Shown: positions 25,277-47,190 of the stretch, one piece after another
Layout: the number at the start of each line of letters is the position of its first letter
Position numbering within the stretch: position 1 is the stretch's first letter
Source of the DNA: Methanofollis aquaemaris
Lineage (GTDB): Archaea; Halobacteriota; Methanomicrobia; Methanomicrobiales; Methanofollaceae
Reading direction: 5' to 3'
DNA: 64,000 nucleotides
Assembly (NCBI RefSeq): GCF_017357525.1
Contig: NZ_CP036172.1
Coordinates: 1,958,561-2,022,560, forward strand
Translations under genes and position numbers: made by a program
The notes under the pieces: generated by a model
Database searches by the model: none
What the model was told of the DNA's origin: nothing
Seen by the model: the letters and a program-made list of their open reading frames with translations, nothing else

Positions 25277-25454
25277 TGCCGTGGGGGGGGTCGGGGTTTT
25301 CTCCCCCCGGCGCGAGAGCAGAGATGAGAATTCCTCGTTTTTCTGATGGAGTGGGAAGGCAGCGGGCTGATCGTTCAGAGGGTGATCCTGTTCTTTGCCG
25401 ATCCATCACGCAGGGGCAAGGGTGTGGTCAGCCCTGATGTTCACTCCAGGAGAG
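25277..25454. repeat. Dispersed GC hairpin element, copy lacking one arm
   Basis: The left arm 'gtggggggggtcggggtttt'...'ctccccccggcgcgagag' (25281-25318) is followed by a short spacer and then the element tail at 25351-25454 ('gggaaggcagcgggctgatc', 'gccgatccatcacgcagggg', 'gttcactccagg'), which aligns with 32744-32850. The right arm is absent. It occupies most of the gap between the FTR gene and purQ. Confidence 0.65.
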
Positions 25455-25494
25455 AAATTCTCCAGATCAAAAAAAGTATTCGTGAACCTTTCGC

Positions 25495-32615: not shown

Positions 32616-32850
32616 CTTCCCCCTGCGGGAGAGAGCAGGGTAAAGTATCTCGTTCTTCTGTGGGGACAACCCTTCTGATCGACGTGCCTTCCTCATGAAC
32701 CGCACCGGGGGCGCTGCCCCCGTAAACTCCGGGATTGTGATAGGGGTGGGAGGGCTGGCGATGATTGTTCAGAGGGGGTTTCCGTACTCTGCCGATCTAT
32801 CATAGAGGGGCGAAGGTGTGATCGGCTCCTCATGGTCACTCCAGAAGAGG
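32616..32850. repeat. Dispersed paired-arm GC hairpin element, copy near glyA
   Basis: A left-arm remnant ('cttccccctgcgggagagag', 32617-32636), an inter-arm body ('ttctgatcgacgtgccttcc' near 32672), an inverted right arm ('caccgggggcgctgcccccg', 32703-32722, then 'gggattgtgataggggtggg') and a tail at 32751-32850 align with the copies near 47006, 46445 and 25351. It has no coding potential. Confidence 0.65.
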
Positions 32851-32915
32851 AATGCAACAGAGCTGAATCTTATAATATGTCATCTGGATTGATCTCTTAG
32901 CGGGGGGCGGCCGCC

Positions 32916-32967
32916 GTCCATGAAAAGGTGGCCAAATGTCCGTACCGAGAACTGACACAGGTGCCCC
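32916..32967 (+). other. 52-nt fragment of 23S rRNA in an intergenic region
   Basis: This segment equals 23S rRNA positions 42717-42768 in this window, with one mismatch in 52 (32931 g against a). It includes 'tgtccgtaccgagaactgac' exactly. Similarity stops abruptly on both sides. It lies in the 751-base gene-free stretch between glyA and the smc locus. The rest of that gap holds the dispersed element, TATA-like sequences near 33100 and 33232 for the downstream gene, and nothing else I can name. Confidence 0.85.
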
Positions 32968-33271
32968 CTGGTTCCCCCGCGTGAGGATCAAACCAGAGAC
33001 GACGCCACGCTCTTTGTGATCTTTGATTCAGCCTTCCCGACTCAATCCCGGGGGTTCAGTGTTGTCACCCCGGTAAAAGAGAGAAACTCTCAAAAGAATC
33101 GTTTATATCGTATTTCTCCTGCATATTCGGGGCAGGGACAGTAGATCATACGTCTGGATTGATTCGCAATGGCCCTTTGTATCTCTTATCCTGCATTCGT
33201 CGCAGGAATACCGCAGGAAAAGAGCACAAGGATTATAGGTCAATAGAATCATCTTTATTTCGAGGGAAAAT

Positions 33272-41030: not shown

Positions 41031-41068
41031 AAAGGGAATGCACATCGGGCGTCAAATGGGTTCAGCGG
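41031..41068 (+). other. 23S rRNA processing stem, 5' half
   Basis: 'aagggaatgcacatcggg' and 'gggttcagcgg' pair with 43983-44021 ('ccgttgaaccc', 'cccgatgtgcatacccttaa'), giving a bulge-helix-bulge structure that brackets 23S. Confidence 0.85.
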
Positions 41069-41070
41069 AA

Positions 41071-43982
<2,912 letters not shown>

Positions 43983-44021
43983 CCGTTGAACCCAGACGAA
44001 ACCCGATGTGCATACCCTTAA
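43983..44021 (+). other. 23S rRNA processing stem, 3' half
   Basis: Complementary to 41031-41068; see that entry. The motif 'tgcataccctta' within it recurs before the second 5S gene at 44505-44516. Confidence 0.8.
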
Positions 44022-44137: not shown

Positions 44138-44260
44138 TGATAGCGGCCAAAGCAACGGGGAAACACCTGGACTCTTTCCGAACCCAGCAGTTAAGCCCGT
44201 TAACGTATTACTCTGTACTGAGTTGCGAGAGCACTTGGGAACAGTAGTGCGCTGCTATCC
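44138..44260 (+). rRNA. 5S ribosomal RNA, operon copy
   Basis: About 123 nt; the terminal stem pairs 'tagcggcc' with 'gcgctgcta'. 'cctggactctttccgaaccc' and 'agcagttaagcccgttaacg' are conserved 5S blocks. It lies six bases after tRNA-Cys and is the last gene of the rRNA operon. Confidence 0.95.
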
Positions 44261-44543: not shown

Positions 44544-44666
44544 GTATAGCGGCCAGAGCAACGGGGGAACACCTGGACTCTTTCCGAACCCAGCAGTTAA
44601 GCCCGTTAACGTATTGTCCTGTACTGAGTTGCGCGAGCACTTGGGAACGGCAGTGCGCTGCTATCA
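44544..44666 (+). rRNA. 5S ribosomal RNA, second copy
   Basis: A full-length second 5S gene, 283 bases after the first, differing at roughly ten positions (for example 'gtattgtcctg' for 'gtattactctg', 'gcgcgagc' for 'gcgagagc'). Differences are compatible with 5S folding. It has its own TATA box and no adjacent tRNA, so it is probably transcribed separately. The AT-rich DNA between the two copies (44261-44543) contains no gene I can support. Confidence 0.92.
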
Positions 44667-46327: not shown

Positions 46328-46631
46328 CGCATGCCTCAGGCATACCGCATGAAAATTGTTCGGAACAGTGTTCCGTGGTGTGGAGGATCCTTGATCCTCC
46401 CCTCAACGACGGTGAATATTCTACGATAGGAACGGCCTGCCTAGATCGACGTACCTTCCCTCATGAATCGCGCCAGTGGCGCTGCCCCAGGAACTCCGGT
46501 ATAAGAGGGGGTCGGGGGTTCGGATCCCCCGACAAAGTGCGAAGGGGAAGGCAAGTGACGTGAAGAGCCGACCCGACAGAAGAACGTGGATTACCATGAA
46601 AAACTTTTCATGAGGTATGCCTGAGGCGTGC
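46328..46631. mobile_element. About 300-bp element with inverted terminal repeats (MITE-like)
   Basis: 'gcctcaggcataccgcatga' (46333-46352) and its inverted complement (46606-46625, with one mismatch) extend to a near-perfect pair of about 30 bases at 46328-46357 and 46602-46631. The interior, 46445-46555, is a diverged copy of the dispersed GC hairpin element. No transposase is encoded. No clear target-site duplication was found by eye. Confidence 0.45.
46445..46555. repeat. Diverged copy of the dispersed GC hairpin element inside the MITE-like element
   Basis: 'gatcgacgtaccttccctca' and 'gcgccagtggcgctgcccca' align with 32678-32722. 'gggggtcgggggttcggatc' and 'gaaggggaaggca' resemble the arm and tail. 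Between this and the next copy, 46632-47005 holds no recognisable gene. Confidence 0.5.
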
Positions 46632-47005: not shown

Positions 47006-47190
47006 CGCCCCATACCTATTTTCGCCGTGGGGGGGTCCGGGGGAGTCTCCCCCCGGCGCGAGAGAGCAGGCTCGCATTTTTTCATTCTATTTTTGGGCGG
47101 CCGGTCTGATCACCCCTATCCCACCACTTGCGCCGGGGGCGCTGCCCCCGAACCTCCGGGATTGCGAAGGGGACAGGAAGGCAGCGGGGA
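47006..47190. repeat. Dispersed paired-arm GC hairpin element, complete copy
   Basis: The left arm at 47006-47070 ('cgccccatacctattttcgc', 'ggggggtccgggggag', 'ctccccccggcgcgagag') and the inverted right arm at 47130-47186 ('cgccgggggcgctgcccccg', 'cctccgggattgcgaagggg') are separated by about 60 bases containing 'gggcggccggtctgatcacc'. This is the clearest copy of the two-arm architecture together with 781-944. Confidence 0.75.

Follow-up and report, generated by a model that had tools for sequence, protein, structure and literature searches.

A 23S rRNA-derived insert at the palindrome apex of a degenerate MITE in an archaeal chromosome

In a methane-producing archaeon, the spacer between glyA and smc was found to contain a 52-nt piece of the 23S rRNA gene. 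The piece occupies the apex of a hairpin-forming, GC-rich palindrome within an old and degenerate copy of a miniature transposon (MITE). The window (the whole 64-kb stretch of DNA that was analyzed) is part of a complete archaeal chromosome of 2,746,416 bp in a single contig. In our view, the probable origin is a break or stalled fork at the apex that was mended with 23S DNA (about 50 bp) from the same genome, which would have left a neutral scar with no function. The insert is apparently recent, lineage-specific and a one-off capture.

The rRNA-derived piece and its donor

The piece and its donor are located in the window as follows.

32916..32967, + strand: 23S rRNA-derived insert, identical to 42717-42768 at 51/52 positions, with a private G at 32931
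42717..42768, + strand: donor segment, part of the 23S rRNA gene at 41067-43984; it lies on the strand of the insert, 9801 bp downstream

The sole mismatch between the insert (GTCCATGAAAAGGTGGCCAAATGTCCGTACCGAGAACTGACACAGGTGCCCC) and the donor was G at 32931 against A at 42732. The initial annotation had described a 52-nt copy of 23S with sharp ends, at a length that excluded chance. The alignment bore out the copy, and the E-values (4.8e-20 in the window and 4.3e-18 in the whole genome) excluded a chance match. The ends were indeed sharp, with identity to the 23S flanks falling to background on both sides of 32916-32967, except that the position of the right boundary is ambiguous over as many as 5 nt, because a GCCCC at this position belongs to the rRNA and to the palindrome alike.

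The donor gene is an archaeal 23S gene and the only one in the genome. Over the donor site, it did not differ from the 23S of the sister species (G005), and both carried A at the mismatch position. The G at 32931 was therefore private when compared with the 23S of the closest relatives. The piece fitted the 23S of its own and the sister species best (one mismatch each), and the fit worsened with distance. This argued against transfer from a distant organism, one of the origins suggested earlier.

A truncated copy of the rRNA operon with its processing stems was also rejected, as the flanks of the insert matched the 23S flanks only in short chance words. A donor at 9.8 kb on the same strand would be expected by chance in 0.7% of cases. 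This proximity was set aside as a sign of local template switching because of ascertainment bias, the piece having been found inside one 64-kb window. Downstream of the single 16S-23S operon are two tandem 5S rRNA genes (44139-44260 and 44545-44666), which scored 91.7 and 81.7 bits, the second being slightly diverged.

Related genomes and the rest of the chromosome were searched for the same insertion and for other rRNA fragments, as the initial annotation had proposed. With 23S as the query, nothing but the gene itself and 32916-32967 rose above noise in the whole genome, and no dispersed 16S piece was found there. The piece is thus unique in its own genome. With 23S and 16S as queries, no further dispersed piece was found in the rRNA-bearing relatives among the 40 scanned. 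The remaining small matches in these relatives resembled gene ends on fragmentary assemblies, some of them at contig ends, and were not individually checked; recurrent rRNA pieces in relatives were rejected on this basis. The 140-bp region around the piece had no full counterpart in the other genomes of the genus (Methanofollis), and the insertion was absent from all relatives.

The host element and its palindrome

The host element, its neighbor, the arms of the palindrome and the shared bases at the right junction are located as follows.

32880..33178, + strand: degenerate copy of the IS5-related MITE family that hosts the insert, with eroded terminal repeats and an approximate right end
32618..32864, - strand: second, adjacent copy of the family (dozens of copies in the genome), in opposite orientation
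32883..32906, + strand: left palindrome arm in the host element, 24 nt; the palindrome is imperfect, with 75% complementarity to 32974-32997
32974..32997, + strand: right palindrome arm, also 24 nt, with 75% complementarity to 32883-32906
32963..32967, + strand: junction microhomology GCCCC, common to the rRNA (GGTGCCCCTAG) and the host palindrome (GCCCCCTGG)

The host element is a degenerate member of an IS5-related MITE family. The family is about 231-242 bp long. Its complete copies ranged over about 228-246 bp, were non-coding, dispersed and mostly intergenic, and possessed the terminal inverted repeats GGCTCTGTAGAAA...TTTCTACAGAGCC. Most copies with both ends intact were flanked by a target duplication of 8 bp (9 in one, perhaps a chance extension), for example CAATAAAG at L093 and CTTTAATT at L099. 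In the window copy the terminal repeats were eroded and the target duplication was not recognizable. At least 55 family matches were present in the genome, with 40 of 250 candidates scored. Besides 32618-32864, further pieces of the family were seen in the window at 25341-25466, 46444-46502, 47046-47172 and 895-944.

The sister species contained a 1008-bp element (L124), whose ends (GGCTCTGTAGAATTCC and GGCCCTGTAGAAACCC) matched those of the MITE. It was flanked by an 8-bp duplication (GAACAATC) and encoded a transposase of 306 aa that was assigned to the IS5 family (NF033579, E = 2.5e-70; Pfam DDE_Tnp_1). This element (G005:C1:642071-642580 region) appeared to be intact and is a candidate to mobilize the MITE family.

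The rRNA piece lies between the two arms, at the apex. A search with the flanks of the insert found the same palindrome without the rRNA piece in the own genome and in G001, G003 and G005. A strict pattern gave 61 empty palindromes in the genus (for example GCGGGGGGCTGGCCGCCCCCCGGTCCCCCCGCG), 11 of which were in the own genome. When the flanks in the window were joined, they read GCGGGGGGCGGCCGCCCCCTGGTTCCCCCGCG, in agreement with the consensus of the empty palindromes, and the left part (GCGGGGGGCGGCCGCC) and the right part (GCCCCCTGGTTCCCCCGCG) aligned to the two halves of GCGGGGGGCTGGCCGCCCCCCGGTCCCCCCGCG. Similarity to the host family reached about 33086, beyond which a weak resemblance persisted until about 33178.

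The empty sites are paralogous copies. No orthologous empty allele of the insert site was found in the sister species, because the glyA-smc spacer of the relatives is filled by other repeats (L061, L062) and, in G005 and G003, can be aligned at its ends only.

At the left junction, GGCCGCC of the host meets GTCC of the rRNA, with zero shared bases. At the right junction, the rRNA (GGTGCCCC) and the host have the GCCCC in common. Alternatively, the junctions may be described as a 3-bp duplication of GCC. Either description is compatible with end joining or with template switching, but not with a typical product of transposition. CRISPR-type integration was rejected, judging from the lack of a duplication of the expected length.

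Origin of the insert

We interpreted the insert as a probable scar of DNA repair. A double-strand break or a stalled fork would have occurred at the apex of the palindrome, and would have been repaired with a stretch of 23S DNA, either copied or captured. The right end would have been joined at the 5-nt microhomology and the left end bluntly, and the outcome would be neutral and confined to this lineage. A recombination-derived insertion had been one of the options in the initial annotation, alongside transfer, gene conversion, selection, retro-insertion, an rRNA-mimicking small RNA and an assembly artefact. An origin by recombination or repair gained support from the sharp ends, the microhomology and the apex position in a MITE of which other copies are empty. 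Breakage and template switching at palindromes have been documented (PMC7999016). On the other hand, the mechanism rests on one junction pair and a single rRNA event, and the left junction has no microhomology.

A second kind of segment was seen at the apex. In copies of the sister species (L145, L150 and L153), a module of about 37 nt (TCGAAGATCAAAGATCTTCTCGACTCCCTCCGGTCGT or near), unrelated to the rRNA piece, lies at the same palindrome apex, between GGCCG(C/T) and the next C-run. The MITE context was clear for L145. The module was also present in other repeat contexts (G000, G001, G003 and G005), usually right before a C-run. It contains two small inverted repeats, GAAGATC-AAA-GATCTTC and CGAC-TCCCTCCG-GTCG (loci L145-L160). 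In the own genome, copies L114, L117 and L118 lost similarity at the center of the palindrome.

The module and the loss of similarity are consistent with a fragile apex, and suggested that the sequence at this point changes easily. Insertions may recur there, or the module may have done no more than move between repeats by shuffling; it could also have spread by recombination between MITE copies and not by breakage. With the strict pattern, one occupied palindrome was counted besides that in the window, against 61 empty ones, and control counts were higher; this count is not significant alone, and the case of L145 rests on its MITE context. It is doubtful, in our judgment, that the apex of the GC-rich MITE palindrome is a recurrent site of acquisition for short foreign segments (the rRNA piece and the double-hairpin module), whether as a record of template switching at hairpins or as the target of a hairpin-directed insertion activity.

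The source of the insert might have been rRNA, if a 23S fragment was reverse transcribed and its cDNA joined into a break in the palindrome. Ribosomal RNA would be the most abundant RNA, and the shortness of the piece resembles that of an rRNA decay product. However, a search with the RVT_1 family (PF00078) found no reverse transcriptase in the genome, though a control search detected them in E. coli and Methanosarcina acetivorans, and no second rRNA piece was present. Retro-insertion, which had also been suggested, was therefore disfavored. We regard an RNA source as quite unlikely, and DNA as the probable one.

GC-rich palindromes and repeats are error-prone in assembly, and the insert is known from one genome of the species. 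Nevertheless, the private mismatch at 32931 would be unexpected if the assembly had merely copied the 23S gene. At 52 nt, the piece is below the usual read length, and the chromosome forms a single contig. The piece is also exactly at the apex, where sister genomes bear a foreign module. We therefore assigned an assembly chimera a low probability.

Equally little weight was given to a specific mechanism, such as a hairpin-recognizing integrase or transposase, that would insert short sequences at MITE apices and would have delivered both the rRNA piece and the 37-nt module. The window uses the same apex as L145, L150 and L153 (GGCCGC on the left and CCCC on the right). However, a consistent target duplication was lacking (at most GCC), the module may be a long-standing variant of the loop that has been shuffled between MITE copies, and the strict pattern gave a single occupied copy besides the window.

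A TATA-like sequence (CTTATAAT) was noted by eye at 32869-32876, some 25 nt ahead of the hairpin; it could be a chance occurrence in AT-rich sequence. Together with the near-identity of 51/52, it would fit a small RNA, transcribed from the hairpin and the rRNA piece, that mimics or decoys 23S rRNA and is preserved by selection. However, the piece holds one strand only of several long-range 23S helices, the partner strands being missing. The 116-nt hairpin folded no better than shuffles (z = -0.87), and the LSU match in Rfam was below threshold (15.4 bits against 50). These properties make a small-RNA role for the insert unlikely. Moreover, the insert was absent from all relatives, and a recent origin accounts for the identity without selection. 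The mimic proposed in the initial annotation was accordingly disfavored, and we give it little credence.

Known systems and implications

The host element resembles prokaryotic IS-derived MITEs (reviewed in PMC10969869) in being short, non-coding, dispersed and mostly intergenic, with terminal inverted repeats. The family also resembles them in its 8-bp target duplication and in that a sister genome contains an IS5-family element whose ends match. The window copy differs in being degenerate and in its rRNA-derived insert; the words 'rRNA' and 'captur' are absent from that review.

The proposed repair resembles templated insertion by microhomology-mediated repair or template switching (for example MMBIR, PMC8421209), in that a short filler would have been copied from elsewhere in the chromosome at a structure-prone site, with microhomology at one junction. 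That account concerns cancer genomes, whereas here we infer the process from a single archaeal scar with a left junction that lacks homology. The site also resembles those of palindrome fragility and hairpin cleavage of the SbcCD/Mre11 type (PMC7999016), in being a GC-rich inverted repeat from which a hairpin could be extruded, the presumed break lying at its apex. The arms of classical fragile palindromes are longer and more perfect than the present ones (24 nt, 75% complementary), and cleavage at the present apex is hypothetical.

Each component is of a known kind, and the combination, rRNA capture at a MITE palindrome apex, was not found in the literature searched. No direct precedent appeared in that literature, which covered rRNA pseudogenes, rRNA fragments and MITEs in Methanomicrobiales. 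ERIC elements, which belong to other organisms and are a different element, are reportedly palindromic intergenic repeats of which some copies have extra internal sequence; we know of no rRNA inserts in them. To our knowledge, an rRNA scrap at the apex of a MITE palindrome has not been reported before.

A close match to rRNA over a short stretch of a spacer is no proof of a functional RNA. Repair at palindromes can leave small scraps of rRNA sequence behind, and these can misguide annotation or the choice of probes. Repair and replication through hairpin-forming DNA have been studied mainly in bacteria and eukaryotes. The many copies of this MITE, empty and occupied, offer a natural assay of these processes in archaea. 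If the apex does acquire foreign segments recurrently, the family would hold a natural record of template switching at hairpins, or would be acted upon by an insertion activity directed at hairpins.
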